Shown: piece after piece, positions 1 to 42,162 of the stretch
How positions within the stretch are numbered: position 1 is the first letter of the stretch
Layout: each line of letters begins with the position of its first letter
NCBI RefSeq assembly: GCF_900013425.1
Contig: NZ_FBXK01000005.1
Coordinates: 3,187,407-3,251,406 of the forward strand
Source of the DNA: Sphingobium sp. Z007
GTDB taxonomy: Bacteria > Pseudomonadota > Alphaproteobacteria > Sphingomonadales > Sphingomonadaceae
DNA: 64,000 bases
Direction: 5' to 3'
Notes under the pieces: generated by a model
The model's database searches: none
What the model saw: only the letters and a program-made list of their open reading frames with translations
Told to the model about the DNA's origin: nothing
Position numbers and translations under genes: made by a program

Positions 1-847
1 GCGCGCCAATGATCGCCAGCATACTCCAGCGATAGCCCTCTACCAGGGTCGAGATCAGCATCGCGATCACCGGGATCAGCACGCTGGTATAGGCGGCGCG
101 GCCCGCGCCCATGCGCTGGATCAGGGTGAAATAGAGCGGGAAGGTCACGACCGATCCGGCGATCCCCAGCCAGCCTATGCCCAATATATAGCCCAGGCGC
201 GGCTCGAATTGCGGCGGGCCGACGGTGGCCCAGGCGAAGGCGGCGTCCACGCCCGCGCCGATCAGCATGGCCCAGGTCAACACCGCCACCATCGGCAGGC
301 GACGGGCGATATCCATCCCCTGCATGACGTTCGCGGCCGACGCGCTCAGCAGGCCAGCGAGCGCGAAGGCCGCGCCCAGCAGCACCATGTCCGGCCGGAC
401 GGTTGCGGCATGATATTCGTGCAGCAGCATCAGGACGATGCCCGTCATCGCCACCAGCGATCCGCCGATGAAGGCGCGGCTGACCGGCTGACGGAAAATC
501 AGCCAGGCGAGGATCGAATTGGGGATCAGCAGCATCGCATAGACCACCGCGACCACGCCGGAGGTCAGATATTGTTCGGCACGATAGACGAAGTTGAAGT
601 TCAGGACGAACTGCGCCACGCCGAGAATGGCAGCGTAGAGCAAGCCGGCCCGGCCGATATTGAGCGAGACGCCGCGCAGCCGCGCGAACGCGGCCATGGC
701 GATCCCGGCGAGCAGGAAGCGGTAGCAGACCGACCAGCTTGCCGGCACCGACCCAATCTGATCGCGGATCACGATCCACGTCGAACTCCAGATCAGGGTG
801 ACGAGGATGAAGGGGATGATGACGCCACCCGATTTGCCCTCAGTCAT
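1..847 (-). CDS. EamA/DMT-family transporter (3' end outside window)
   Basis: The reverse strand reads [20 protein letters not shown] and continues as an almost uninterrupted series of hydrophobic helices to the left edge. The pattern is that of the 10-TM drug/metabolite transporter superfamily (two EamA repeats), which export amino acids, metabolites or drugs across the inner membrane. About 282 residues are visible and the family is usually 290-310, so only the last helix is probably missing. The ATG at 847 overlaps the stop of the threonine aldolase gene by 8 bases, so the two are very likely cotranscribed and translationally coupled. An amino-acid export role would suit that neighbour, but the substrate cannot be read from the sequence. 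Confidence 0.88.
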   Translation of the reverse strand, partial: MTEGKSGGVIIPFILVTLIWSSTWIVIRDQIGSVPASWSVCYRFLLAGIAMAAFARLRGVSLNIGRAGLLYAAILGVAQFVLNFNFVYRAEQYLTSGVVAVVYAMLLIPNSILAWLIFRQPVSRAFIGGSLVAMTGIVLMLLHEYHAATVRPDMVLLGAAFALAGLLSASAANVMQGMDIARRLPMVAVLTWAMLIGAGVDAAFAWATVGPPQFEPRLGYILGIGWLGIAGSVVTFPLYFTLIQRMGAGRAAYTSVLIPVIAMLISTLVEGYRWSMLAIIGA

Positions 848-24185: not shown

Positions 24186-25543
24186 CCGACCTTTTCACGC
24201 CTCCCTATCCGCAGCCGCCCCGGAGCAAGGCGGGCCTGGTGAAGCGGTTCCTGCGCGGCTGGCATAGTTGGATCCATGTGCTCTTCGACAAAAGCTATAC
24301 GATGAAGATGGGCGAAATCCGCACGCCCGGCCGGACCATGTATATCGCCAACGAACTGAGCCTGGTGGACCAGATATTGCGCGGCGGCACCGCCTATCCC
24401 AAGCATAGCGAACTGGTGCGCAATTTGGACCCGCTGATCGGCAACAGCGTCTTTTCGGCCAATGGCGCGGATTGGGAAAGCCAGCGGGCGATGGTCAACC
24501 CCGCCTTCGCCCATACCGCGCTGACCAAATCGATGCCGCTGATGGTCGCGGCAGCGGACGACCTGCTCGCGCGGCTGGATGCTGCGGATCGGGACAAGCC
24601 GGTCGATATCGACCCGATGATGACCCATGTGGCGGCCGACATCATCTTTCGCACGCTGTTTTCGCAGGCGCTGGATGCCGAGCGGTCGAACATCATCCAT
24701 ACCGCCTTCGGCAAATTTCAGCGGCTGGCGCATAGCGCGTCGATGTTGCGGTTGTATGGCCTACCGGCCGGCTGGTTCGAGAAGAGATCGAAGGGGCCGG
24801 CGCGCGCGATTCATGACGTTTTCCGGCCGATCGTGGAGGCACGCTACGAAAGATGGCACGCGCGCGGGCAAGCGCCGCATCGCGACATCCTGCAATCGCT
24901 GATCGAGGCGAAGGACGCGCAGACCGGGGATAGCTTCACCTGCCAACAGGTGATGGAACAGGTGTCGACCATCTTCCTGGCGGGGCATGAGACATCAGCC
25001 AGCACCATGACCTGGGCGCTCTATATGCTCGCCGAATGCGGCCATATCCAGGACCGGGTGCGGGGTGAGATTGCGGGGATCGCAGGCGATGCGCCGCTGA
25101 CCGCGGCGATGCTCAAGGACATGGGTCAGCTGCGCAATATCTTCAAGGAAACGCTGCGCCTCTATCCGCCGGTATCGTTCCTGCCGCGCGAAGTCACCTG
25201 TCCCATGGACATGCGCGACAAGCATCTGGAGACGGGATCGATGCTGGTGGTCGCGCCCTGGCTGACCCAGCGCAACAAGGATAATTGGGCCTGCCCGCAC
25301 GCCTTCGACCCCGACCGCTTCGACGATCCGGCCAATGCGGAGATGGCGAAACAGGCCTGGTTCCCGTTCGGCCGTGGCCCGCGGGTGTGCGTGGGCGCGG
25401 GTTTTGCGCAGCAGGAGGTGATGACGGTGATCGCCAGCGTCGTGCGCCGTTATCGGTTGACCGTGCCCGCCGGGTTTAAGCCCGAACCGATCAGCCGCCT
25501 GACCATACGGCCGAGGACGGGGATGCCGCTGCTGTTCAGCTAA
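24182..25543 (+). CDS. Cytochrome P450
   Basis: Heme monooxygenase of 453 residues. The I-helix oxygen-binding motif AGHETSAS is at about 266-273, the K-helix ExxR is in KETLRLYP (about 322), and the heme-binding loop FGRGPRVCVGAGFAQQE has the thiolate Cys near 403. No membrane anchor is evident. Class and substrate cannot be named; fatty-acid-type hydroxylation would suit its lipase-like partner but is inference. The start is the GTG at 24182, overlapping the upstream stop. No ferredoxin or reductase gene is nearby. Confidence 0.93.
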   Translation: MTDLFTPPYPQPPRSKAGLVKRFLRGWHSWIHVLFDKSYTMKMGEIRTPGRTMYIANELSLVDQILRGGTAYPKHSELVRNLDPLIGNSVFSANGADWESQRAMVNPAFAHTALTKSMPLMVAAADDLLARLDAADRDKPVDIDPMMTHVAADIIFRTLFSQALDAERSNIIHTAFGKFQRLAHSASMLRLYGLPAGWFEKRSKGPARAIHDVFRPIVEARYERWHARGQAPHRDILQSLIEAKDAQTGDSFTCQQVMEQVSTIFLAGHETSASTMTWALYMLAECGHIQDRVRGEIAGIAGDAPLTAAMLKDMGQLRNIFKETLRLYPPVSFLPREVTCPMDMRDKHLETGSMLVVAPWLTQRNKDNWACPHAFDPDRFDDPANAEMAKQAWFPFGRGPRVCVGAGFAQQEVMTVIASVVRRYRLTVPAGFKPEPISRLTIRPRTGMPLLFS

Positions 25544-26432
25544 GCGCGGTTTCCTCTTCCGGCGCGACGTCGACCATGACGCGCAGGCTCTGGCCCGCGC
25601 CGCCCACGAACAGCCCGTCCATCGGTGCGACATCGGCATAGTCGCGGCCCATCGCCACGAACAGATGCCCGTCATGGGTAATGACCCCGTTGGTAGGATC
25701 AAAGCCGATCCAGCCGCGGGTCGGGCCGCACCACAGCATGACCCAGGCGTGCATGGCGTCGGCACCGATCAGCCGGGGGCGTCCGGGCGGCGGCAGGGTG
25801 CGCAGATACCCGCTGACATAGGCGGCCGGCAGGCCGGCTAGGCGCAGAGCGACCACCATGACATGGGCGAAATCCTGGCACACGCCATGGCGTGCGGCAA
25901 AAGCGTCGGCGACCGGGGTGGAAGCGTCGGTCGCACCGGGTTCATAGGCGAATTCCGCCTGGATACGCCGGGTCAGGTCCAGCGCGGCGGCGACGATCGG
26001 CCGGTCCGGGGCGAGCATGTCCCCCGCCCACTTGCCGATCGGCGCAAGCAGCGGCGCGCGGGGCGAGGCATAGAGATAATGGGCGGGGGCGGACGGCCCC
26101 ATGTCGCGATCCAGCAGGGCGGCCTGCGCGACCGTGGCGATCGTTGGATCGTCAGGCTGGGGGACGATCTGCGGGCCGTTATCCACCCCGGCGCGGAAAC
26201 GGGCTTCGATCGTCAGCTGGCGGATCGGATTTTCTATCACCAGCCGGGCGACGTTGACCGGCCAGGCACCGGGGCGCGATTCGATGGCCGACGGAATGGG
26301 ATCGACGGTCAGCGCATAGTCGGACGTCCATTGGCCGGTCCAGGGCGCGGGGCGCAGCCGCAGGTTGAAACGGGCGAGACGCACGGGGCTGGCGTAGCGG
26401 ACGATGGTCTGGTGGCGGACATGGTAGATCAT
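25536..26432 (-). CDS. Transglutaminase-like cysteine protease family protein
   Basis: Protein of 298 residues with the bacterial transglutaminase N-terminal region ([20 protein letters not shown]) and a papain-like transglutaminase core. The catalytic Cys is in RHGVCQDFAHVMVVALR (about 183), His in DAMHAWVMLW (about 226) and Asp in GWIGFDPTNG. Members of this set are proposed to act as peptidases or amidases. It is the last gene of the three-gene operon and overlaps the ATP-grasp stop as ATGA. Its 3' end overlaps the convergent P450 gene by 8 bases. Confidence 0.88.
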   Translation of the reverse strand: MIYHVRHQTIVRYASPVRLARFNLRLRPAPWTGQWTSDYALTVDPIPSAIESRPGAWPVNVARLVIENPIRQLTIEARFRAGVDNGPQIVPQPDDPTIATVAQAALLDRDMGPSAPAHYLYASPRAPLLAPIGKWAGDMLAPDRPIVAAALDLTRRIQAEFAYEPGATDASTPVADAFAARHGVCQDFAHVMVVALRLAGLPAAYVSGYLRTLPPPGRPRLIGADAMHAWVMLWCGPTRGWIGFDPTNGVITHDGHLFVAMGRDYADVAPMDGLFVGGAGQSLRVMVDVAPEEETALS

Positions 26433-28903
26433 GACAGCAGGTCCGGCGTCTGCGTCTTGCGCAATTGCAGGAAGTAGCGCTGGCCGATCGAATCGGACAG
26501 GCGCAGCAGGCGGTTTTCCACGTCGTCGATGTCGGCCATCGTCAGCATGTCGCCGGTCAGCGGCGCGAGGCGCGCGACCAGCGCGTCGGCCAGGCGACGG
26601 GGTTCTTCTGGCATGCCATCGGCGCGCAGCGTGGGCAGGGCGGCGATATGCTCCGCCAGGCGCGCCGCCTGATAGGCGATGGCGCGGGGATTATGCGGCT
26701 CCAGCGCGACGAGATCGCGCACGGGGGGCAAGGCTGGGCCGGTCAGGTAACGGGTGCGGTAGCTGATCTGGCTGTCCTGCAGGTCCAGCAGCACGGTCAG
26801 GTCGTCGGCTGACGCCTGGTCGTTGCCGAAGGCGGTGAGCAGTCGGCAGCCGTTGATTGCACGCTCCATACGGCGACCCATATCGTGGAAGCGCCAGCCT
26901 TCGGTGCGGCCCATATTCTCTGCGGCCAGGCCCGACAGCGCGGAAATCCGCTCGATCATGCGGGATGAGGCGTCGAGCAGGGTTTCGGTGACCTGGCCGT
27001 CGAAAGCGGGCAGGGGCAGGCGGACCAGCCGCCAGAAATCGCTGGCGAGCCGGTCGCGCAGCCCTTCGCCGATATTGGCGACGGTGGCCATCAGCGCGCG
27101 CACGCTGCCCGACCGGCGCGCGTCGCCCAGCGCCGTGGCGCAGAGCGGACCGATCGCGCCGTTGCGGCCGTTGATGGCGCCCCACAGCGCCAGTTGATCG
27201 ACAAGCCGTGCCATGGTGGGGGATGCCAGCGAAGGCCCCAGATCGGCCTCGATCGATCCGCCGACGATCGCGCGGATCAGGCGCAGTGTCATTTCGGTCC
27301 GTTCGATATAGCGGCCGAGCCAGAAGAGATTGTCGGCCGCCTTGGCCGGCAGCATCCCACCGATCCGGCGAATGGCGGGCGCGCCGACGCCCAGCAGGCT
27401 GTCGGGCGGCACCGGCTTGCTGTCGATCACGCACATGTCCGCGGACATGTCTCCCCGGCCCATCAGCGCGGCGCGAATGTCGCCATGCGCCGCGAGCCGG
27501 GCAAAGCCGCCGGGCATCACCCGCCACTGGCCGGTGGCGTCGCGCGCCACGAAGATGCGCAGGGTGAAGGGGAGGGGGGTCAATTGCCCGTCGATGATCG
27601 CAGGCGTGGTCGACAGTTTCACGACTTCCTGCCCGACATAGTCCATCGGCCGCCGCGCCATCGCGTCGAGCAGGGTAGTGCGCTGCGCATTGTCCAGCGC
27701 CAATCCGGGGGTGAAATGGGCGTCGGGCAGGCCCGCGACATCCTGGTCGAAGGCGGAGCCGACGACGAGATTGTCGAGCTGTGCCCGCACATGGTCGCGC
27801 TCCTGGCCTTGACCGCACCACCAGGTCGCGATGTTGGGCAACAGCAGGTCTGCGCCCAGCATTTCGCGCGCCAGTTGCGGCAGGAAGGCGGCGAAGGCGC
27901 GCGATTCGATGACGCCCGCGCCAGGCCAGTTGCTGACCATCAGCCCGCCGCGGGCGCAGGCGTTATAGAGATCGGCGATGCCGATGCGGGATTTCGGGTC
28001 GAAAGCGAGCGGATCGAGGAAGCGCGTGTCCATCCAGCGCCACAGGCCGTCGATGCGCTTCAGCCCTTGGATAGTGCGCACGAACAGCCGCCCGTCCGAC
28101 ACGATCAGGTCGTCGCCCTCCACCAGCAAGAGGCCGAGATAACGGGCGAGATGCGCTTGTTCGGCATAGCTCTGGTTGAAGCGGCCGGGGGTCAGCAGGC
28201 CGATGCGCGGGTCGGTGCGCTCGCAATCGGCGGCGAGGCCGCGGCGCAGTTCGTCGAAAAAGGGCGCGAGCCGCCGCGTGTTCATGGCGCCCAGCAGGTC
28301 GCCAGTGGCGCGGGACAAAGCGAGGCGATTTTCCAGCGCATAGCCAACGCCAACGGGCGTCCGTACGCGATCGGCCAGTACGCGCCATTCGCCGGTCGGG
28401 CCGCGCCCGATGTCGGCGGCGTAGAAATGGAGATGATGGCCGCGCGGGGGCGGCGTGCCGGTCATCACCCGCCAATAATGCGGGCTGCCGGTGACGATGC
28501 TGGCGGGCAGCTTGCCGTCGCGCACCAGCGACTGGGTGGAATAGATGTCGGCGATCACCCGTTCGAGCAGGTTGGCGCGCTGCACCAGCCCGCGTTCGAT
28601 CTGCGCCCATTCGCCTGCATCGATCAGCAGCGGCACCGGGCCTAGCGGCCAGGAGCGTTCCTGTTCGTCGCCGGTGAGGCGGAACGCCATGCCGAGGTCG
28701 ATCGCCTGGCGCGAGACATGGTCGGCCAGCGTCGCCGGGTCGCCCTGCGCCTGGATCGACAGTCGCCCCAGCATGTCGCGCCAGCGCGTGGCCGTGGCGG
28801 GGGACGCGCCGGCGAACAGGTCGCCCGCCGGTGCGGTGGCGAGATAGGCGTCCGCCCAGGCTTCCCCGCTTGCGCGCGGCGCAAGGGCGTCGGCAGCCAT
28901 CAC
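26429..28903 (-). CDS. Fused circularly permuted ATP-grasp and alpha-E protein
   Basis: Protein of 824 residues joining two families usually encoded separately. Residues about 1-490 form a circularly permuted type 2 ATP-grasp ([73 protein letters not shown]). Residues about 510-815 are an alpha-E (DUF403) helical domain ([40 protein letters not shown]). Such proteins are predicted carboxylate-amine ligases that make or attach peptides; no product is known. Both ends overlap neighbours as ATGA, so the three genes are translationally coupled. Confidence 0.9.
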
Positions 28904-31900
28904 AGCCCGGCGTGTTTGAAGCGCAGGTCGAGGGTCATGGGGAACTCATTGGCCGGTTCGGCGGCGGGCATGTCGACTTGCCCCGGCGTATGGCCATAAT
29001 CCTGGAACCGCGCCTTGCGCCGGGCTTCGGCCTCATAGCCGTTGACCGGCAGCGTGTCGTAGTTGCGCCCGCCCGGATGGGCGACATGATAGACGCAGCC
29101 GCCCAGTGAACGGCCGCTCCAGCTATCCAGCACGTCGAAGGTGAGCGGGGCGTTGGCCGGCAGATTGGGGTGTAGGCAGTTGGCGGGCGTCCACGCCTTG
29201 TAGCGCACGCCGCCCACGCCCTCGCCCGGCACGGACGTCGCGGTCATCGGCACCCTGCGGCCGTTGCAGGTCACGATATGCCGTCCGGCGACAAGGCCGG
29301 TGGCGCGCACCTGCAACCGTTCGGTCGAGGAGTCGACATAGCGCACCGTGCCGCCGATCGCGCCGGTTTCGCCCAGCACGTTCCAGGGTTCGAGCGCATG
29401 GGTGATCTCCAGCCCGACGCCGCCGGCATCGACCGCGCCATGGACGGGGAAGCGGAACTGGCGCTGCGCTTCGAACCAGTTGGGATCGAAATCATAGCCC
29501 GCGCCGCGCAGGTCGGAGAGCACCTCCAGAAAATCTGCCCAGACGAAATGGGGCAGCATGAAGCGGTCGTGGAGGGTCGTGCCCCAGCGGACCAAGCCGC
29601 CCTGTTGCGGCTGACGCCAGAACCAGGCGGCGAGCGCGCGGATCAGCAATTGCTGGGCCAGGCTCATCCGCGCTTCGGGCGGCATTTCGAAACCACGAAA
29701 CTCCAGCAGGCCGAGGCGACCGGTCGGGCCGTCTGGCGAGAACATCTTATCGATACAGATTTCGGTGCGGTGGGTGTTGCCGGTGACGTCCACCAGCAGG
29801 TTGCGGAACAGCCGATCGACCAGCCAGGGCGGCGGCGTCTTGCCCTCGCCCGCGAACGGGTTGGGCACCTGCGCCAACGCGATTTCCAGCTCGTAGAGGC
29901 CGTCATGGCGCGCTTCGTCAATGCGCGGCGCCTGGCTCGTCGGACCGATGCACAGGCCCGAAAAGAGGTAGGAGAGGGCCGGGTGCCGCTGCCAGTAGAG
30001 GACGAAGCTTTTCAGCAGGTCCGGGCGGCGGATGAAGGGCGAATCGGTCAGCGTTGCTCCGCCCAGCACGATATGATTGCCGCCGCCGGTGCCGACCGAT
30101 CGGCCGTCGACCATGAACTTGTCCGCGGTCAGTTCACATTCGCGGGCAAGGGTATAGAGGCGTTCGGTGATCGCCACCGTTTCGTCCCAGCTGGATGCGG
30201 GCTGGACGTTGACTTCGATCACGCCGGGATCGGGCGTGGCCTTCAGCACGTCGATGCGCGGGTCCGGCGGGGGGGCATAGCCCTCGATCCGCACGGGCAC
30301 GCGCAGCGCTTCGGCGGTCGCCTCCACCTCGGCGATCAATTCCAGATAATCCTCCAGCGCCTGCACCGGCGGCAGGAAGACCGAGAGATAATGGCCGCGC
30401 GGCTCCACGGTGACGGCGGTGCGCACCGCGCCTTCGATGAAGACCTGTTCAACCCGGTCCTGTGCGGCGACGCCGCCGTCCGGCCCGGCGACGCGCTGGG
30501 CCTGCTGCGCGCGCACATCCTCGACGCTGGCCTGTTGCGGCACCTGGGCGCGAAAATCGGGCAAAGGCTCGCGCGGCTCGCTGGTGTCGCGCGGGTGGAT
30601 ATAGGGATAGTCCGACGGCGGCACATAGGGCAGCGAGCCCAGCGGCAGGCGATAGCCCAAAGCCGAATCGCCCGGCACCGCGAACAGCCGGCCGCGGCGC
30701 AGCTGCCAGATTTCGCTCTGCCAACGCGGGATGGCGGCCTGCGATTGCCAGCGCTGCACTGGCAGGACATAGCCGACCGGCTGGTCGAGGCCGCGCTCGA
30801 ACGTCTTGACCATGCGGGCGCGCGCTTCGGGATCGCTGATCTTGGGATCGTCGGGGCTGGCGTTGAGCGGCAGGTCCGCTTCCTTCACCGCCCACACCGC
30901 CGGGTCTTCATAGACGGCATGGGTATAGTCTTCGGTGAAGCCCATATTGCCAGCCATATGGGCCAGGAAGGCTTTCGCATCCGCGGCCGTCACCTGCGCT
31001 GCGCCTGCGGGGGCGTTGTCGGGCGCGATCAGGCTGTCGTCGCGCCAGACCGGCGTGCCGTCCTTGCGCCAATAGACCGCATAGGCCCAGCGCGGCAGGC
31101 TTTCGCCCGGATACCATTTGCCCTGGCCATGGTGCAACAGGCCGCCGGGCGCAAATTCTGCGCGCAGCTTGCGGATCAGCCGGTCGGCATAGGCGGCCTT
31201 GGTCGGGCCGACCGCATCGCCATTCCATTCGCCTGCATCGCCGCCCTCCGTCGCCACGAAGGTCGGTTCGCCACCGGTGGTCAGGCGCACGTCCTGCGCG
31301 ACAAGGTCCGCGTCCACCCTGGCCCCCAGCGCCATAACTGCGTCCCAGCGGCTGTCCGTGAAGGGTTTGGTGATGCGCACCGCTTCGGCGATGCGGCTGA
31401 CGGTCATGGCGAATTCGAAATCGACTTCGGCGGGTTCCGCCATGCCGCTGATCGGCGCGGCGGACTTGTAGTGCGGCGTGGCGCAGAGCGGGATATGCCC
31501 TTCGCCCGCGAACATGCCGCTGGTGGCGTCGAGCGCGACCCAGCCTGCACCGGGCACATAGGCCTCCGCCCAGGCGTGGAGATCGACCACGTCCTGGGTA
31601 ACGCCCTTTGGCCCTTCGATCGGTTCGACATCGGCGACCAGCTGGATCGAATAGCCCGATACGAAGCGGGCGGCAAAGCCCAGGCGGCGCAGCAACTGCA
31701 CCAGCAACCAGGCCGAATCGCGGCAGGAGCCGGTGCCGATGTCCAGCGTCTCTTCGGGCGTCTGCACGCCTGCCTCCATGCGGATGACATAGCCGACCTG
31801 TTGTTGCAGGCGGCGGTTCACCTCGACCAGGAAATCGACCGTCCGACTTTGATAGCCGTCATACTGGGCGACCATTGTCTCGAACTTCGACCCCTGATCC

Positions 31901-32259
31901 TCGATATCGAAATAGGCGGCGAGGTCGGTCTTCAGCTGGTCGTCATAGGCGAAGGGGTAATTTTCCGCATAAGGCTCCACAAAGAAGTCGAACGGATTGA
32001 TGATGTCGAGATCGGCGAGCAGATCTACCTGGATGCGGAAATGATCGACCGGATCGGGAAACACCACGCGCGCCAGCCAGTTGCCGTGCGGGTCCTGCTG
32101 CCAGTTCAGGAAATGGTTCGCCGGCTCGATCTTCAGCGCATAATTGGGCACTTTGGTTCGACTGTGCGGCGCGGGGCGCAGGCGGATGACCTGCGGGCCG
32201 AGCCGGATCGGGCGGTTGTAACGATAGGCGGTGAGGTGGTGTAGGGCGGCCTTGAGCAT
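28900..32259 (-). CDS. DUF2126 protein with N-terminal transglutaminase domain
   Basis: Large cytoplasmic protein of 1119 residues. Residues 1-290 are a transglutaminase domain: [20 protein letters not shown]; Cys in [18 protein letters not shown]; His in [12 protein letters not shown]; Asp in [10 protein letters not shown]. The remainder is DUF2126, with the conserved stretches [39 protein letters not shown] and [20 protein letters not shown]. The last set suggests a glutamine-synthetase or ATP-grasp-like ligase. The start at 32259 is chosen because a longer frame would run into tRNA-Leu; the ribosome site is weak. First gene of the operon. Confidence 0.88.
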
Positions 32260-32383
32260 GGCCGGATCAAACGCCACCCCCTGTTGCAATGCAACAGCCA
32301 ATCGCTTGGGGGGTGAAGTTTCTGGCCTGTTTCGCCAGTTTGCCCCGGCCTCTCGCCCAGATGGCGATGGCACGGGATAGTGA

Positions 32384-32470
32384 TGGTGCGGCCAAGAAGA
32401 CTCGAACTTCCACGGGCTTTCGCCCACAACGACCTCAACGTTGCGCGTCTACCAATTCCGCCATGGCCGC
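32384..32470 (-). tRNA. tRNA-Leu (GAG)
   Basis: 87 bases with a 7-bp acceptor stem (GCGGCCA with TGGCCGC), encoded CCA, a D-loop GGAATTGGTAGACGC, a long variable arm (type II) and the T-loop TTCGAGTCT. The anticodon loop TTGAGGT gives GAG at 32434-32436 (complement), reading CUC/CUU. It stands 125 bases upstream of the DUF2126 gene on the same strand. Confidence 0.95.
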
Positions 32471-33134: not shown

Positions 33135-36100
33135 TTATTCCGCCGCGACCGTTTCCGCCGCGCTGTCGCTGAGCGGATGGGCCAGGCGACCCAGCATTTC
33201 CTTGGGGCAGACCTGCCAGATATAGCGACGCCAGCGATCCCAATCGTCTAGGATGGTGTTGGACCATTTGCTGTCCGTCGCCACCGCATGTTCTGCGATC
33301 AGCGCCTTGACCTGCGTTTCCCAATAGGCACTGTCCAGCCGCTGCCACACGATGCCTTCGGGGTTTGCCTGCGCCGGGAAGCTGCCATCCTCGTCCAGGA
33401 TGAAGGCCATGCCGCCGGTCATGCCCGCGCCGAAATTGGCGCCTGTCTTGCCCAGGATCACGGCCACGCCGCCGGTCATATATTCGCAGCCGTTCGCACC
33501 GCATCCCTCGACTACGACCTGCGCGCCGGAGTTACGGACCGCGAAGCGCTCTCCCGCCTGGCCCGCCGCAAACAGCTTGCCGCTGGTCGCGCCGTAGAGG
33601 ACGGTGTTGCCCAGGATCGTGTTGTCCTTCGACGACAGCGGGCTGGAGACGGTCGTGCGCACCTTGATGATGCCGCCCGACAGGCCCTTACCCACATAGT
33701 CGTTGGCGTCGCCGAACACTTCGAGCGTGATGCCCTTGCACAGGAACGCGCCCAGCGACTGGCCTGCCGACCCGCGCAAGCGCACGGTCAGATGGCCGTC
33801 GGCCAGGGTCGACATGCCGAACCGGTCAGTCACGGCGGACGACAGCCGGGTGCCGACCGCGCGATGCGTGTTGCGCACCGTGTAGGTCAACTGCATCTTT
33901 TCGCCCCGCTCGAACACGGCCTTGGCGTCGCGCATCATCTGCGCGTCCAGGCTGTCGGGCACTTCGTTGCGCCATTGCGTCAGCGAAAAGCGGCGCTGGT
34001 CGTCGGGCGCATCCACCTTGGCCAGGATCGGGTTGAGATCCAGATCGTCCAGATGCTCCGCGCCGCGATTGACCTGCTTGAGCAGTTCGGTGCGCCCGAT
34101 CACTTCGTCCAGGCTGCGGAAGCCCAGCCGCGCCAGGACTTCACGCACTTCCTCGGCGATGAAGGTCATCAGGTTGATGACCTTCTCCGGTGTGCCGGTG
34201 AACTTCTGGCGCAGTTTTTCGTCCTGCACGCATACGCCCACGGGGCAGGTGTTGCTGTGGCACTGGCGCACCATGATGCAGCCCATGGCAACCAAGCTCA
34301 ATGTGCCTATGCCATATTCCTCCGCGCCCAGGATCGCGGCGATGACGATGTCGCGCCCGGTCTTGAGGCCGCCGTCGGTGCGCAGCTTCACACGGTGGCG
34401 CAGGCCGTTGAGGGTCAGCACCTGGTTCGCTTCGGACAGGCCCATTTCCCAGGGGGTGCCGGCATATTTGATCGAGGTCTGCGGGCTGGCGCCGGTGCCG
34501 CCGACATGGCCGGCGATCAGGATGACGTCGGCATGGGCCTTCGCCACGCCCGCCGCGACCGTTCCGATCCCGGCCTGGCTGACCAGCTTCACGCAGACGC
34601 GGGCGCGCGGGTTGATCATCTTGCAGTCGTAGATGAGCTGCGCCAGATCCTCGATCGAATAGATGTCATGATGCGGCGGGGGCGAGATCAGCGTCACGCC
34701 CGGCGTCGAATGGCGCAGCTTGGCGATGAACTCGGTCACCTTGAAACCGGGCAGCTGGCCGCCTTCGCCGGGCTTGGCGCCCTGCGCGACCTTGATCTCG
34801 ATTTCCTCGGCCGATGCCAGATATTCGGCGTGGACACCGAAACGGCCGGACGCGATCTGCTTGATGACGCTGTTCGCGTTGTCGCCATTTTCATACGGCT
34901 TGAAGCGGTTCGCATCCTCACCGCCTTCGCCCGACACCGCCTTGGCGCCGATGCGGTTCATCGCGATTGCTAGCGTTTCATGCGCTTCGGGGCTGAGCGC
35001 GCCCAGCGACATGCCCGGCGTCACGAAACGCTTGCGGATTTCGGTGGTGGCCTCGACCTCGTCAATAGGCACGGCTTCGCGGGCGAAGTTGAACTCCATC
35101 AGGTCGCGCAGATAGACCGGCGGCAGGTCGCGCACGCCGCGCGAAAATTGCAGATAGGTGGAGTAGCTGTCGGTCGCCACGGCCGTTTGCAACAGATGCA
35201 TGAGTTGCGCGGAATAGGCATGGCTCTCGCCGCCCTGCCGCTGGCGATAGAAGCCGCCGATCGGCAGGCGCACCACCGCCGCGTCGAACGCCTGCTCGTG
35301 GCGCAGCATCGCGCTATAATGGAGCGAGGCATAGCCTTCGCCCGAAATCTTCGCCGGCATGCCGGGGAAGAGATCGTTCACCAGCGCGCGCGACAGGCCC
35401 ACCGCTTCGAAATTATAGCCACCGCGATAGCTGCTGATGACCGCGATGCCCATTTTGGACATGATCTTGAGCAGGCCTTCGTTGATCGCCGTGCGATAAC
35501 GTTCGAAGCAGGCGTCCAGCGACAGGTCGCCGAACAGGCCGCGGCCATGACGATCGGCGATGCTGGCTTCGGCCAGATAGGCGTTCACCGTGGTCGCACC
35601 CACGCCGATCAGCACCGCGAAATAATGGGTGTCGAGCGCTTCGCACGACCGCACGTTGATCGACGCATAGGAGCGCAGCCCCTTACGCACCAGATGCGTG
35701 TGGACCGCGGCCGCCGCCAGCACGCCCGCGATGGCCGCGCGCTCGGCATTGACGCCTTCGTCCGTCAGGAAGATTTCGGTGCGGCCTTCGCGCACCGCCT
35801 GCTCGGCCTCTTCACGGATGCGGGAAATGGCGGCGCGCAACTGCTCCTGGCCGCCCGACGCGGGGAAGGTGCAGTCGATTTCAGCCACGGACGGACCGAA
35901 ATAGGCCTTGAGTCGCGCCCATTCAGCGCTGGTCACGACCGGCGATTCCAACACCAGCACATGGCTGTTCTGCGCACCTTCCTCCAGGATGTTGTGGAGG
36001 TTGGAGAAGCGCGTCTTCAGGCTCATCACATGCCGTTCGCGCAACGGATCGATCGGCGGGTTGGTAACCTGGCTGAAATTCTGGCGGAAGAAATGGCTGA

Positions 36101-37673
36101 TGGTCCGCGGCTTGTCGGAAATGACGGCCAGCGGCGTGTCGTCCCCCATGGAGCCGATCGCTTCCTTGGCGTCCTCGACCATGGGCGCCAGGATCAGTTC
36201 CAGATCCTCCAGGGTCAGGTTGGCGGCGACCTGGCGGCGGGTGAGTTCCGCCTTGTCCCAGCCCGGCAGCGCGGTCGGCGCTTCGGCCAGGTCCGCGACG
36301 GTCAGGAAGTCCTTGATAAGCTCGCCATAAGGGCGTTCGCCCGCGATGCGATCCTTGATCGCACGGTCGTCATAGATTTCGCCTTCGAGCAGGTCGACCG
36401 CGATCATCTGGCCCGGACCCATACGGCCCTTCTTGACGATGGTGGTTTCGGGCACGACGACCATGCCGGTTTCCGACCCCACGATCAGCAGATTGTCGCC
36501 GGTCAGCGTATAGCGCAGCGGGCGCAGCGCGTTGCGATCCACGCCGGCCACGACCCAGCGGCCGTCGGTCATGGCAAGCGCGGCGGGGCCGTCCCACGGC
36601 TCCATGACGGAGGCGAGATAGTCGTACATGTCCGCATGGGCCTTGGGCAGGTCGGCGCTTTGCGCCTGCCAGGCTTCGGGGACCAGCATCAGCTTGGCGG
36701 TCGGCGCGTCGCGGCCGGAGCGGCAGATCGCTTCGAACACGGCATCAAGCGCAGCCGTATCGGATGCGCCGGCCGGGATCACCGGCTTGATATCCTCCGA
36801 CTGCTCACCAAAGGCGAGCGAAGCCATCTTGATCTCGTGGCTCTTCATCCAGTTCTTGTTGCCGCGGATCGTGTTGATCTCGCCATTATGGGCCAGCGTG
36901 CGGAACGGCTGGGCCAGCCACCATTGCGGGAACGTGTTGGTCGAATAGCGCTGGTGGAAGATGGCGACGCGGCTTTCGAACCGTTCGTCCTGCAGGTCCG
37001 GGTAAAAGACCGACAGCGATTCGGCCAGGAACAGCCCCTTGTAGATGATCGAGCGGCAAGACAGCGAGCAGACGTAGAAATCCTGGATCTGCGCGGCGAT
37101 GACCTGCTTTTCGATGCGGCGGCGGATCAGGTAAAGATCCTTTTCGAACTCGGCGACATCGCGCTCTTCGGGCATCGGCCCGGCGATCATGATCTGCTCG
37201 ATTTCGGGTCGCGTGCGCTGCGCCTTCTCGCCGATGACGGACACGTCGACCGGCACCTGGCGCCAGCCATAGATGGTGTAGCCCGCGTCGATGATTTCGC
37301 TTTCCACGATCGTCCGGCAGGTTTCCTGGGCGGACAGGTCGGTGCGCGGCAGGAAGATCATGCCGACGGCCAGGCGATTGGGCAGCGGCTTGTGGCCGGA
37401 GTCCGCGATCGCATCGTCGAAGAAGCGCACCGGCAGGTCGACATGGATGCCCGCGCCATCGCCGGTCTTGCCGTCCGCATCGACCGCGCCGCGATGCCAC
37501 ACGGCCTTGAGCGCATCGATCGCGCTGGCGACGACGCGGCGGCTGGGGCGGCCGTCCGTTGCTGCGACCAGGCCCACGCCACAGGCGTCGCCTTCCATGT
37601 CGGGGTGATACATGCCCTCGGCTGCGATCCGTGCGCGCTCTTCGGGGCTGGCCATGAAGGGAGTATCAGTCAT
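33135..37673 (-). CDS. gltB: Glutamate synthase (NADPH) large subunit
   Basis: Enzyme of 1512 residues making two glutamates from glutamine and 2-oxoglutarate. After a short propeptide, Cys31 (GDACGVGLV) is the N-terminal nucleophile of the class II amidotransferase domain (about 31-430). The central and FMN/2-oxoglutarate domain follows, with the 3Fe-4S cysteines in CHSNTCPVGVC (about 1140-1150). The C-terminal GXGXG beta-helix domain ends the chain. It lies downstream of gltD in one operon, separated by a 99-base gap holding a strong palindrome. Confidence 0.97.
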   Translation of the reverse strand: MTDTPFMASPEERARIAAEGMYHPDMEGDACGVGLVAATDGRPSRRVVASAIDALKAVWHRGAVDADGKTGDGAGIHVDLPVRFFDDAIADSGHKPLPNRLAVGMIFLPRTDLSAQETCRTIVESEIIDAGYTIYGWRQVPVDVSVIGEKAQRTRPEIEQIMIAGPMPEERDVAEFEKDLYLIRRRIEKQVIAAQIQDFYVCSLSCRSIIYKGLFLAESLSVFYPDLQDERFESRVAIFHQRYSTNTFPQWWLAQPFRTLAHNGEINTIRGNKNWMKSHEIKMASLAFGEQSEDIKPVIPAGASDTAALDAVFEAICRSGRDAPTAKLMLVPEAWQAQSADLPKAHADMYDYLASVMEPWDGPAALAMTDGRWVVAGVDRNALRPLRYTLTGDNLLIVGSETGMVVVPETTIVKKGRMGPGQMIAVDLLEGEIYDDRAIKDRIAGERPYGELIKDFLTVADLAEAPTALPGWDKAELTRRQVAANLTLEDLELILAPMVEDAKEAIGSMGDDTPLAVISDKPRTISHFFRQNFSQVTNPPIDPLRERHVMSLKTRFSNLHNILEEGAQNSHVLVLESPVVTSAEWARLKAYFGPSVAEIDCTFPASGGQEQLRAAISRIREEAEQAVREGRTEIFLTDEGVNAERAAIAGVLAAAAVHTHLVRKGLRSYASINVRSCEALDTHYFAVLIGVGATTVNAYLAEASIADRHGRGLFGDLSLDACFERYRTAINEGLLKIMSKMGIAVISSYRGGYNFEAVGLSRALVNDLFPGMPAKISGEGYASLHYSAMLRHEQAFDAAVVRLPIGGFYRQRQGGESHAYSAQLMHLLQTAVATDSYSTYLQFSRGVRDLPPVYLRDLMEFNFAREAVPIDEVEATTEIRKRFVTPGMSLGALSPEAHETLAIAMNRIGAKAVSGEGGEDANRFKPYENGDNANSVIKQIASGRFGVHAEYLASAEEIEIKVAQGAKPGEGGQLPGFKVTEFIAKLRHSTPGVTLISPPPHHDIYSIEDLAQLIYDCKMINPRARVCVKLVSQAGIGTVAAGVAKAHADVILIAGHVGGTGASPQTSIKYAGTPWEMGLSEANQVLTLNGLRHRVKLRTDGGLKTGRDIVIAAILGAEEYGIGTLSLVAMGCIMVRQCHSNTCPVGVCVQDEKLRQKFTGTPEKVINLMTFIAEEVREVLARLGFRSLDEVIGRTELLKQVNRGAEHLDDLDLNPILAKVDAPDDQRRFSLTQWRNEVPDSLDAQMMRDAKAVFERGEKMQLTYTVRNTHRAVGTRLSSAVTDRFGMSTLADGHLTVRLRGSAGQSLGAFLCKGITLEVFGDANDYVGKGLSGGIIKVRTTVSSPLSSKDNTILGNTVLYGATSGKLFAAGQAGERFAVRNSGAQVVVEGCGANGCEYMTGGVAVILGKTGANFGAGMTGGMAFILDEDGSFPAQANPEGIVWQRLDSAYWETQVKALIAEHAVATDSKWSNTILDDWDRWRRYIWQVCPKEMLGRLAHPLSDSAAETVAAE

Positions 37674-37691
37674 GATCGCCGTCCTATTCTT

Positions 37692-37755
37692 CCGTTCGGT
37701 TCGAGCCTGTCGAGAACCTTCGCAACCACGTTCTCGACAAGCTCGAACCGAACGG
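37692..37755. repeat. 26-bp-stem palindrome inside the gltD-gltB operon
   Basis: Arms of 26 bases (37692-37717 and 37730-37755) starting CCGTTCGGTTCGAGC are complementary with one mismatch around a 12-base loop. It occupies most of the spacer between gltD and gltB. The RNA hairpin would be very stable and lacks a following T-run, so it could slow exonucleases and set different amounts of the two subunits. It is one copy of the dispersed CGTTCG-type family. Confidence 0.8.
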
Positions 37756-37772
37756 GCGGAGATATGGGGAAT

Positions 37773-39218
37773 TTAGGCGGCCACGCTCTCGCGCGCCCTG
37801 GCCTTCGCCTTCAAATAGCGGTGCATATGGTCAGTCACGTCGCGGCCGTCGCGGATCGCCCAGACAACCAGGCTTGCGCCGCGCACGATGTCGCCCGCCG
37901 CGAACACGCCGTCCACGCTGGTCATCATCGTCTTGTGATCGACGCGCAGCGTGCCCCAGCGGGTGACCGACAGGTCGTCGCTGCCGAACAGCCTGGGCAG
38001 GTCTTCGGGGTCGTAACCTAGCGCCTTGATGACCAGATCGGCTTCCAGCGTGTGCTCGCTACCCGGATCGGCTTCGGGCGCGCGGCGGCCCGATGCGTCG
38101 GGCTGGCCCAGGCGCATCTTCGTCACCTTGACGCCGGTCACATGCTCGGTGCCTTCAAAGGCGATCGGCGCGGTCAGCCAGACGAACTCGACGCCTTCTT
38201 CCTCGGCATTGGCGACTTCGCGCTGCGATCCGGGCATATTTTCCCGGTCACGGCGGTAGAGGCATTTCACCGAGTTGGCGCCCTGGCGGATCGCGGTGCG
38301 GACGCAGTCCATCGCGGTGTCGCCGCCGCCGATGACGACGACATTCTTGCCTGTCGCCAGCAGCGTGCCGTCCTCATGTTCCGGCACGGCGTCGCCGAAG
38401 CCCGCCTTGTTGGAGGCCGTGAGATAATCGAGCGCCTTGACTACGCCCGCCGCGCCGACGCCCGGCGCCTTGATGTCGCGGGGCTTATAAACGCCGGTCG
38501 CGATCAGGATCGCATCATGCTTGGCGCGCAGGCCTTCCAGCGTCGCGTCACGGCCAATCTCAAAATTCTCGTGGAAGATGATGCCGCCATCCTTGAGGCG
38601 CTGGACGCGGCGCATGACCACGTCCTTTTCCAGCTTGAAGCCGGGGATGCCATAGGTCAGCAGGCCGCCCGCGCGGTCGTGCCGGTCATAGACATGGACC
38701 TCATAGCCCGCGACGCGCAGATATTCCGCCGTCGTGAGGCCGGCTGGCCCGGCGCCGATGACGCCGACCGACTGGCCGCGCGCTGCGCCGGGGACCAGCG
38801 GTTCGACCCAGCCTTCTTTCCAGGCGGTGTCGGTGATATATTTTTCGACGCTGCCGATGGTCACGGCGCCATGGCCGGAAAATTCGATGACGCAATTGCC
38901 CTCGCACAGACGATCCTGCGGACAGATGCGGCCGCAAATCTCGGGCATGGTGCTGGTCAGGTTCGACAGCTCATAGGCTTCGCGCAACCGGCCCTCGGCC
39001 GTCAGACGCAGCCAGTCGGGAATATGATTGTGCAGCGGGCAATGGGTCGAGCAATAGGGCACGCCGCATTGCGAGCAACGCGACGCCTGTTCCTCCGCCT
39101 TGTCCAAAATGAAGCTGCGGCTGATTTCCAGGAAATCGTCAGCGCGGTCGTCCGCGGCGCGCTTTTCCGGGTAGGCCTGAACCTTGCCCACAAATTTCAG
39201 CATCGGATTGTCAGCCAT
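37773..39218 (-). CDS. gltD: Glutamate synthase small subunit
   Basis: Flavoprotein of 481 residues that passes electrons from NADPH to GltB. N-terminal Fe-S cysteines are in RCSQCGVPYCSTHCPLHN and CPQDRLCEGNC. The FAD loop is VIGAGPAGLTTAEYLR and the NADPH loop VVIGGGDTAMDCVRTA. The start MADNPMLKFVGK at 39218 follows a GGAG; an upstream extension of 19 codons has no support. First gene of the gltD-gltB operon, a reversed order relative to E. coli gltBD. Confidence 0.96.
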   Translation of the reverse strand: MADNPMLKFVGKVQAYPEKRAADDRADDFLEISRSFILDKAEEQASRCSQCGVPYCSTHCPLHNHIPDWLRLTAEGRLREAYELSNLTSTMPEICGRICPQDRLCEGNCVIEFSGHGAVTIGSVEKYITDTAWKEGWVEPLVPGAARGQSVGVIGAGPAGLTTAEYLRVAGYEVHVYDRHDRAGGLLTYGIPGFKLEKDVVMRRVQRLKDGGIIFHENFEIGRDATLEGLRAKHDAILIATGVYKPRDIKAPGVGAAGVVKALDYLTASNKAGFGDAVPEHEDGTLLATGKNVVVIGGGDTAMDCVRTAIRQGANSVKCLYRRDRENMPGSQREVANAEEEGVEFVWLTAPIAFEGTEHVTGVKVTKMRLGQPDASGRRAPEADPGSEHTLEADLVIKALGYDPEDLPRLFGSDDLSVTRWGTLRVDHKTMMTSVDGVFAAGDIVRGASLVVWAIRDGRDVTDHMHRYLKAKARARESVAA

Positions 39219-39382
39219 GGCTCGCTCCAGAATCTGTTTCACTAGCGCGCATAACAGAAAACCCCGCACAGTCACGTTGATTCTGGTGTTTAGGTCAGCA
39301 TAGCTTACTAATTAAATGCCGTTTTTCACCCTAGTTGAGAATCGATCGCAAATCTGCCGTCTATATAAGTGCCGTCTCGGAC

Positions 39383-41342: not shown

Positions 41343-41927
41343 TTAGCCGAACCAGCCCTGCAGGTCCGCCAGCATCCACAGCCCAAGGCCAAGGAACAGC
41401 AAGGCCGCGCCGACCTGTAGCGCGCGCATCGGCACCTTCTTCGCAAGCGCCTCGCCGAACAGGACGGCCGGCACATTGGCGACCATCATGCCCAGCGTCG
41501 TGCCCATGGTGACGGCGATCAGGCTGTCGAACCGCGCGCCTAGCGCCACCGTGGCGACCTGCGTCTTGTCGCCCATCTCGACCAGGAAGAAGGCGACCAG
41601 CGTGGTCACGAACACGCCCGCCTTGGTCGGAGCCTTCAATGGCGCATCCTCGTCGAACGTATCGGGGATCAGCGTCCAGGCGGCCATGGCGATGAAGGAG
41701 GCGGCGACGGCATAGCGGAACCAGGGTTGGGTCAGCACGCCCGCGATCGAATGGCCGACCAAGGCGGCCAGGAAGTGATTGGCGATCGTGGCGGCGAAGA
41801 TGCCCAGGATGATCGGCGCCGGCTTCCTGAAGCGGGTGGCGAGCAGCATGGCGAGCAGCTGCGTCTTGTCGCCCATTTCGGCGAGGGCGACGAGCGCCGC
41901 GGAGGTGAAGAGGGCTTCCATCGTCAT
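41343..41927 (-). CDS. TMEM165/GDT1 (UPF0016) family cation exporter
   Basis: Protein of 194 residues with six predicted helices and two copies of the family signature: LAEMGDKTQLLAML near residue 16 and LVEMGDKTQVATVAL near 111. GDT1 proteins move Mn2+ or Ca2+ against protons, and bacterial members are manganese exporters. The yybP-ykoY riboswitch in its leader strongly supports manganese. The start MTMEALF at 41927 is preceded by a stem that could hide the ribosome-binding region. Confidence 0.93.
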   Translation of the reverse strand: MTMEALFTSAALVALAEMGDKTQLLAMLLATRFRKPAPIILGIFAATIANHFLAALVGHSIAGVLTQPWFRYAVAASFIAMAAWTLIPDTFDEDAPLKAPTKAGVFVTTLVAFFLVEMGDKTQVATVALGARFDSLIAVTMGTTLGMMVANVPAVLFGEALAKKVPMRALQVGAALLFLGLGLWMLADLQGWFG

Positions 41928-41934
41928 GTTCCGG

Positions 41935-41986
41935 GGCCGGGCGGAGGTGAAACAGACGCAATGCCACCGTCGCCTCCCGCCCGGCC
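41935..41986 (-). promoter_or_regulatory. Expression-platform stem before the GDT1-family gene
   Basis: The complementary arms 41973-41986 and 41935-41947 pair over 13 bp with one bulged G. The second arm ends 7 bases before the ATG at 41927, in the region where the ribosome would bind. Sequestration relieved by manganese is therefore the likely mode; no T-run suggesting a terminator follows this stem. Confidence 0.55.
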
Positions 41987-42004
41987 GGACAGAAAAACGC
42001 CGAT

Positions 42005-42123
42005 GCCATTGGTCTCGCCCGATGCGGCTATTCGCCGCCTCCCATACGCCACGACCTCTCGGCCGAATATGTTGACGCATGGCCCGTTCCTGACGCGGAA
42101 CGGCTGGCTACTCCCCAGATGAC
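42005..42123 (-). promoter_or_regulatory. yybP-ykoY manganese riboswitch aptamer
   Basis: Read on the minus strand, the leader has the conserved GGGGAGTAGCC, then CGTCAACATATTCGGCCGAG and a terminal GGCGAGACC, in the order found in yybP-ykoY aptamers. The closing P1 helix forms between GTCATCTGG (42115-42123) and CCAATGGC (42005-42012). It lies about 80 bases upstream of a GDT1-family exporter, one of the established gene classes under this riboswitch. Mn2+ is expected to switch the exporter on. Confidence 0.88.
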
Positions 42124-42162
42124 GCGCTAGCCTGTAGTCTGGAGCGGCGGGGAAGGCAAGCC

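Follow-up and report, generated by a model that had tools for sequence, protein, structure and literature searches.

A conserved DUF2126 operon in Sphingobium sp. Z007 pairs a predicted ligase-fold protein with a degenerate ATP-grasp/alpha-E fusion

Which gene product makes the amide bond in an operon that encodes an ATP-grasp domain, a DUF2126 domain and two transglutaminase domains? The question is raised by a window of 64000 nucleotides (the whole stretch of DNA that was analysed; contig C5, 3187407–3251406) in the 4.94 Mb genome of Sphingobium sp. Z007, where three open reading frames (ORFs) lie head to tail on the minus strand and encode a DUF2126 protein, a fusion of ATP-grasp and alpha-E domains, and a transglutaminase. 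The operon is real and of a known kind, and the ligase assignment shifts from the ATP-grasp domain, which a first-pass annotation had proposed to be a peptide or isopeptide ligase, to DUF2126. The ATP-site residues of the fused ATP-grasp were found to be lost (D164-A177-R179, ESR and G), a loss that the same annotation had named beforehand as telling against its proposal, and its further suggestion that DUF2126 supplies a second ligase is plausible, as a glutamine synthetase (GS) fold is predicted for this protein. The features on which this rests are as follows.

28900..32259, minus strand: DUF2126 protein of 1119 amino acids (aa), made up of an N-terminal transglutaminase, a ligase-like domain of GS fold and a beta-rich region at the C terminus (ORF, Pfam, structural models)
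31525..32244, minus strand: its transglutaminase part, residues 6–245 (Pfam; triad C179-H228-D244 intact)
29443..31386, minus strand: its GS-like domain, residues about 292–939 (predicted fold, conserved motifs)
26429..28903, minus strand: fused degenerate circularly permuted ATP-grasp and Alpha-E protein of 824 aa, or 823 aa from the ATG at 28900 (ORF, Pfam)
27491..28633, minus strand: its CP_ATPgrasp_2 domain, residues 91–471 (Pfam; closest solved structure 3n6x_A)
28367..28414, minus strand: degenerate metal-binding motif D164/A177/R179 (in stand-alone copies D, E 13 on, N 15 on)
26471..27352, minus strand: Alpha-E domain, residues 518–811 (Pfam)
25536..26432, minus strand: second transglutaminase of 298 aa (Pfam; triad C185-H228-D245 intact)
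32384–32470: tRNA-Leu, directly upstream of the DUF2126 gene

Pfam matches were to Bact_transglu_N, Transglut_core and DUF2126 (1289.7 bits) in the DUF2126 protein, to CP_ATPgrasp_2 (429 bits) and Alpha-E (210 bits), both above cut-off, in the fusion, and to Bact_transglu_N and Transglut_core in the 298-aa protein. The DUF2126 protein, whose closest named relatives are from Sphingobium, thus has a transglutaminase domain of its own, and a second transglutaminase is present, as first annotated. The DUF2126 gene starts with the ATG at 32259; the alternative, a longer ORF from a GTG at 32427, is not credible because it overlaps tRNA-Leu. An ATGA overlap had been claimed for both gene junctions and was found at the second, between the fusion and the second transglutaminase, but the first junction reads GTGATG, so that the genes overlap by GTGA or, if the fusion starts at the ATG, are joined as TGATG.

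Candidate ligases in the operon

In the stand-alone relatives of the ATP-grasp domain and in 3n6x, a D is followed by an E 13 positions on and then by x-N, a pattern that, from what is generally known of ATP-grasp enzymes, we take to be the metal triad. The same stretch was matched by local profile comparison with GSP_synth proteins, at a weak overall score (probability 0.7, P 0.079). In the window fusion the D-E-N triad has become D164-A177-R179, a DDK motif has become ESR, and a second lysine has become G. D-E-N was kept in all 50 stand-alone copies compared (those of loci L003 and L123 included) and in none of 36 fused copies (those of the window and L166 included), two of which, in L174 and L217, retain the E alone; among 73 alphaproteobacterial fused copies, the E was retained once and the N never. 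In 33 stand-alone copies 32 polar positions were invariant; in 24 fused copies 14 of these were kept, six were partly kept and 12 were mostly lost (R130, E215, N217, R219, Y329, D374, D375, K376, Y379, K423, N514 and S516 in L003 numbering), R219 being retained in the window protein. As the metal triad, the DDK and the second lysine are lost, peptide ligation is probably not the role of the fused ATP-grasp.

Stand-alone and fused copies formed cleanly separate groups, with a support of 1.0, in a tree of 113 sequences; of the 72 fused loci from Alphaproteobacteria, 27 were included in it. Across 63 fused sequences 57 positions were conserved at 90 percent or more, and eight of these are particular to the fused clade (one alignment of fused loci held 30 of the 72 extracted). 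Selection therefore acts on the fused form, probably to maintain a function other than ATP-grasp chemistry. The Pfam text for PF04174 reportedly notes already that forms without activity commonly occur fused to Alpha-E. If so, the inactivity of the fused copies is a known statement confirmed here with counts and not a discovery.

For the ligase-like domain of DUF2126, structure prediction and structural matching found the overall GS fold, and GmaS structures were among the matches to the model. The ligase domain of this kind of system is reportedly circularly permuted; the alignments here were colinear with the order of GS (model 14..658 to chain 22..455), though the aligner may report colinear matches only. 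The conserved motifs are GGEPTF (residues 329–334), DPGVIEVN (677–684), TGGGNH (724–729) and EFR (853–855), and the domain is strongly conserved, with a mean column identity of 63 percent over 69 sequences; the DUF2126 alignments drew on 33 and on 68, respectively, of the 80 loci described below. A sequence search of the PDB with the domain gave no meaningful match and none to GS. The fold of gamma-glutamylcysteine ligase (GCS2) was considered and rejected, as there was no sequence profile match (P 0.51), though the first row in Foldseek was 1tt4, a predicted glutathione synthase. Some public records label DUF2126 proteins (P0029, P0086, P0116) as 'IMP dehydrogenase', which is a misleading name.

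Both papain-fold enzymes proposed in the first pass hold up, as both transglutaminase triads are intact. Residues C179, H228 and D244 of the DUF2126 transglutaminase part were invariant in 42 sequences, and the Cys-His-Asp triad was present in all 33 aligned rows, consisting of the window enzyme, the DUF2126 domain, the enzyme of L003 and 30 relatives taken from the 66 extracted.

Conservation and co-occurrence of two operons

Related loci were collected by scanning genome contigs with a DUF2126 alignment, and the best 80 of at least 588 relatives, a set that leans to close relatives and is alphaproteobacterial wherever the title names a group, were compared. DUF2126, ATP-grasp, alpha-E and the second transglutaminase were found in the same order and on the same strand in 72 of these 80 loci, a conservation of gene order that far exceeds chance. 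Three of the other eight end at a contig edge, and five carry DUF2126 but show no other part of the operon in the following 10 kb. The ATP-grasp and alpha-E domains form one open frame in all 73 loci showing both (including L102, where the contig ends before any second transglutaminase), so that the 824-residue fusion singled out in the first pass is present but is no oddity.

A conserved small substrate gene, for which the first pass had suggested a survey, was not found when ORFs with 40 aa or more were compared all against all across the 80 loci, a comparison that small genes could escape (the longest ORF per place was kept, overlapping ones were dropped and the 45 widest clusters listed). 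No further gene is widely conserved beside the operon; the widest cluster outside it, found at 21 of the 80 loci, encodes an ABC transporter ATPase, judging by the Pfam match of one member. In 11 loci the operon is followed by glycogen genes; in Rhizobium (L078:16784-22974) the downstream genes encode a 415-aa protein without a Pfam match at 1e-10 and then glycogen phosphorylase, and in some loci a branching enzyme.

In the window, a cytochrome P450 gene (24182–25543, plus strand) converges with the second transglutaminase gene (25536–26432, minus strand), with an overlap of 8 bases. Upstream of tRNA-Leu and the operon, and on the same strand, are gltB for the large subunit of glutamate synthase and a probable gltD for the small subunit (33135–39275, minus strand); a glutamate synthase large subunit gene was near DUF2126 in L039 only, one of the 80 loci. 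A manganese riboswitch (yybP-ykoY; 42021–42129, minus strand) lies upstream of a gene for a GDT1-type cation/proton antiporter (41343–42080).

DUF2126 is single-copy in the Z007 genome. A second, complete operon (L003:6601-10904, in locus L003 at C5:1692000-1711000), 1.5 Mb from the window operon, encodes a split set of an ATP-grasp protein (529 aa) with an intact triad, an alpha-E protein (310 aa) and a transglutaminase (290 aa), together with an Anbu/proteasome-fold protein.

Of 299 sampled Pseudomonadota genomes, 92 had DUF2126, 171 had alpha-E and 115 had Anbu. All 92 DUF2126 genomes contained alpha-E, bearing out the expectation that the three families belong together, and at least two copies were present in 86 of them; among the 57 genomes with Anbu and without DUF2126, 55 had exactly one alpha-E and two had none. 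DUF2126 and Anbu occurred together in 58 genomes (Fisher p 9e-9, where this and the binomial values ignore kinship) and were at most 6 kb apart in 11. The best-scoring alpha-E, taken to be the stand-alone copy, lay no more than 12 kb from DUF2126 in 27 of 41 genomes outside the class of the window organism and in one of 42 inside it (positions were visible for all but nine of the 92). Eight clusters, picked because both modules lie close together, have them side by side; in one of these, L183, the fused copy was not found.

Thirty of the 92 DUF2126 genomes, picked so as to be varied, were searched for ATP-grasp (PF04174), as were 16 of the 24 genomes that have alpha-E and lack both DUF2126 and Anbu, namely all 11 with two alpha-E copies and five of the 13 with one. 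None of the 36 genomes with a fused copy was without a stand-alone ATP-grasp, and 10 of 46 genomes had the stand-alone form without the fused (one fused copy, G127:C58, has no locus and is outside the 36 copies compared above, its genome being among these 36).

Nitrogen limitation and the upstream region

Expression data for relatives link such operons with nitrogen. In the portion of PMC5491218 covered here, genes I35_5080-5083 of Burkholderia cenocepacia H111, for DUF404/407, DUF403, transglutaminase and large transglutaminase proteins, change by log2 -8.2, -9.4, -9.4 and -6.0 in an ntrC mutant when nitrogen is limiting; the large transglutaminase protein is probably DUF2126, judged by its description. 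For Pseudomonas putida, passages of PMC8050072 report that with nitrate versus ammonium Anbu (PP_2685) is up by log2 4.44 and the ATP-grasp (PP_2688) by log2 3.99, and that a reporter of the PP_2688 promoter is induced 3.7-fold on nitrogen depletion. Induction of Anbu under nitrogen limitation is also cited in a passage of PMC5666114.

Sigma-54-like boxes matching at least 10 of 12 positions were found in six of 16 upstream regions from the eight side-by-side clusters described above, versus 0.45 expected; a 17th region, upstream of Anbu in L176, scored 9 and is outside this count. Sigma-54 control in Alphaproteobacteria was considered and did not convince, as a score of at least 9 was reached in 16 of 79 upstream regions versus 7.5 percent of shuffled ones and the matches are partly repeats from close relatives. 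Another element is present before the DUF2126 gene.

32282..32296, minus strand: conserved inverted repeat TGTTGCA-T-TGCAACA, about 35–37 nucleotides before the DUF2126 start and overlapping the sigma-54-like match

The core of the repeat, TTGCANTGCARCA, was found upstream of DUF2126 in all 10 closest loci (L039–L047 and L052; Sphingomonadales where titled), in which the flanks are poorly conserved. Of 79 alphaproteobacterial upstream regions, 14 match it at 11 or more of 12 positions, versus 0.3 percent of shuffled ones, kinship being ignored. The repeat is a candidate operator of a regulator, possibly PhaR-like. It fits the loose PhaR box NGCN(3)GC[GA]N(3) given in a passage of PMC10888616, but as that box is very unspecific, PhaR control remains a lead only.

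Competing explanations and related systems

The best explanation overall is a two-locus module for making and breaking amide bonds, used under nitrogen limitation, in which DUF2126 is the ligase and the fused ATP-grasp is non-catalytic; taken as a whole, we give it an even chance. The operon would act in the cytoplasm, with DUF2126 as an ATP-dependent carboxylate-amine ligase by virtue of its predicted central GS fold, and with the attached transglutaminase domain, given its triad, as a putative thiol enzyme on the same amide or isopeptide bonds. The ATP-grasp/alpha-E fusion, as a paralogue of an active ATP-grasp that has lost its catalytic residues, would probably be a binding or regulatory partner, and the second transglutaminase may trim or hydrolyse the product or substrate. 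The module may work in trans with the intact ATP-grasp/alpha-E/transglutaminase/Anbu operon present in the same genome, and the published nitrogen response of relatives suggests that the window operon, too, might be used under nitrogen limitation.

Several points count against this explanation. The GS match is weak in Foldseek (best E 0.0088) and comes from models of moderate confidence (pLDDT 73.5 and 78.0), the profile match between DUF2126 and GS spans 73 columns only, and the putative catalytic metal and ATP residues of DUF2126 are assigned from motifs that resemble those of GS. In the fused clade the 14 polar positions kept include D164 and R167, thus some binding may remain. Of the 92 DUF2126 genomes 34 lack Anbu, as do all 80 best-matching DUF2126 loci, and no fused match was found in five of the 30 sampled DUF2126 genomes. 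The degenerate fusion is present together with an intact ATP-grasp in 11 genomes that have neither DUF2126 nor Anbu (G024, G189, G193, G201, G275, G170, G172, G213, G237, G114 and G124), hence it is not simply a DUF2126 subunit; the idea that it always accompanies DUF2126 was rejected on the same 11 genomes. The sigma-54-like box in the window (32285–32300) is unconvincing (9 of 12 positions, P 0.06). In passages of the published work, the P. putida Anbu (PP_2685) promoter is nitrogen-agnostic in a reporter test (PMC8050072), and co-expressed proteins of the Yersinia Anbu operon formed no specific complexes (PMC6376114).

The two-locus system might instead be mainly degradative, with Anbu and the papain-fold enzymes freeing nitrogen under limitation and the ligase domains only tagging or re-amidating substrates. 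Such a role, which we consider unlikely though worth keeping in view, would suit the induction of relatives under nitrogen limitation and both intact transglutaminase triads, and in the portion of PMC5666114 covered, Anbu binds proteasome inhibitors and the authors prefer degradation to peptide synthesis. However, peptidase activity of Anbu was not detected with standard substrates, according to a passage of PMC6376114, and the window operon lacks Anbu while its ligase-fold domain is strongly conserved.

Somewhat less probable still, DUF2126 would make small gamma-glutamyl amides for the assimilation of amines or nitrogen, like GmaS or PuuA, the transglutaminase domains hydrolysing them, and there would be no macromolecular product. 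The GmaS structures among the DUF2126 matches, the nitrogen links reported in the covered parts of the work on relatives, and gltB and the probable gltD directly upstream in the window are consistent with this, but the adjacency of glutamate synthase is confined to L039. GmaS and PuuA, moreover, are not known to carry an additional N-terminal transglutaminase.

That the fused ATP-grasp is itself an active peptide or isopeptide ligase whose product both transglutaminases cut or recycle, as first annotated, now seems very improbable. It belongs to the same family as ATP-grasp ligases, it keeps the 14 polar positions noted above, and a stand-alone paralogue from Yersinia frees phosphate from ATP (a passage of PMC6376114), but the E and N metal ligands, the DDK and the second lysine are gone from nearly all fused copies read. 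A decaying relic in an operon on its way out would also explain the lost catalytic residues, but the positions conserved across the fused clade and the single open frame in every locus showing both domains make it scarcely credible.

A further two-locus explanation, which is doubtful as it stands, makes the operon one arm of a conjugation machine induced by nitrogen limitation. The GS-fold ligase would join an amine or peptide to carboxylates of proteins or peptides, the inactive ATP-grasp/alpha-E adaptor would pair with and redirect the active ATP-grasp/alpha-E of the Anbu operon, and the papain-fold enzymes and proteasome-like Anbu would reverse the modification. If true, Gram-negative bacteria would have a counterpart of pupylation for tagging peptides, whose adaptor is a pseudoenzyme seen only together with its active paralogue.

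The claim of an undescribed pathway was too strong. The related Anbu operon has been described, and in the passages covered of PMC6376114 and PMC5666114 its prediction is credited to Iyer et al. 2009 and Valas and Bourne 2008. No product is named for these families in the passages and listings of the literature covered, no paper was found under the name DUF2126 or 'inactive ATP-grasp' terms in the open-licence literature, and for Rv2566-2569c that literature gave, in the parts covered, a resistance and transmission study only. The count of an inactive copy never without an active one, and the nitrogen evidence gathered for the DUF2126 module, were likewise not seen in the open-licence literature. 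The families are widespread in Pseudomonadota, as the alpha-E count indicates (171/299), and a probable working ligase domain, an inactive copy never found without an active one and the nitrogen response of relatives turn an open prediction into a few testable questions.

Among known systems, the abstract of Iyer et al. 2009 reportedly proposes that peptides may be tagged by a system of circularly permuted ATP-grasp and GS-like ligase, NTN-hydrolase and alpha-helical domain. Of the features that, by the Pfam text, reportedly define their CP-ATP-grasp/alpha-E/transglutaminase peptide-modification system, the window operon shares ATP-grasp and Alpha-E encoded together with an adjoining transglutaminase gene, and a transglutaminase N-terminal to a COOH-NH2 ligase domain (DUF2126, whose ligase role is predicted from the fold). 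With the GS/GmaS superfamily, DUF2126 shares a predicted fold (residues 285–950) and a local motif match, but there is no significant full-length sequence similarity and DUF2126 is fused to a transglutaminase. The putative glutathionylspermidine synthase 3n6x_A belongs to the same circularly permuted ATP-grasp family as the fusion (E 1.1e-58) but retains D..E-D-N, DDK and K, which the fusion has lost.

The domain families of the Anbu operon are all shared by the window operon except Anbu itself; the window operon adds DUF2126 and fuses a degenerate ATP-grasp to alpha-E. The RloABC operon of Pseudomonas aeruginosa, in the portion of PMC12239564 covered, also combines an ATP-grasp, a transglutaminase-fold protein and a peptidase, but its transglutaminase is membrane-bound and inactive, its protease is retropepsin-like and its ATP-grasp is likened by the authors to RimK. 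The I35_5080-5083 cluster of B. cenocepacia H111 likewise comprises a DUF404/407 ATP-grasp, a DUF403 (alpha-E) protein, a transglutaminase and a large transglutaminase protein (passages of PMC5491218); there the ATP-grasp and alpha-E are separate genes under NtrC-dependent expression, whereas in the window they are fused.

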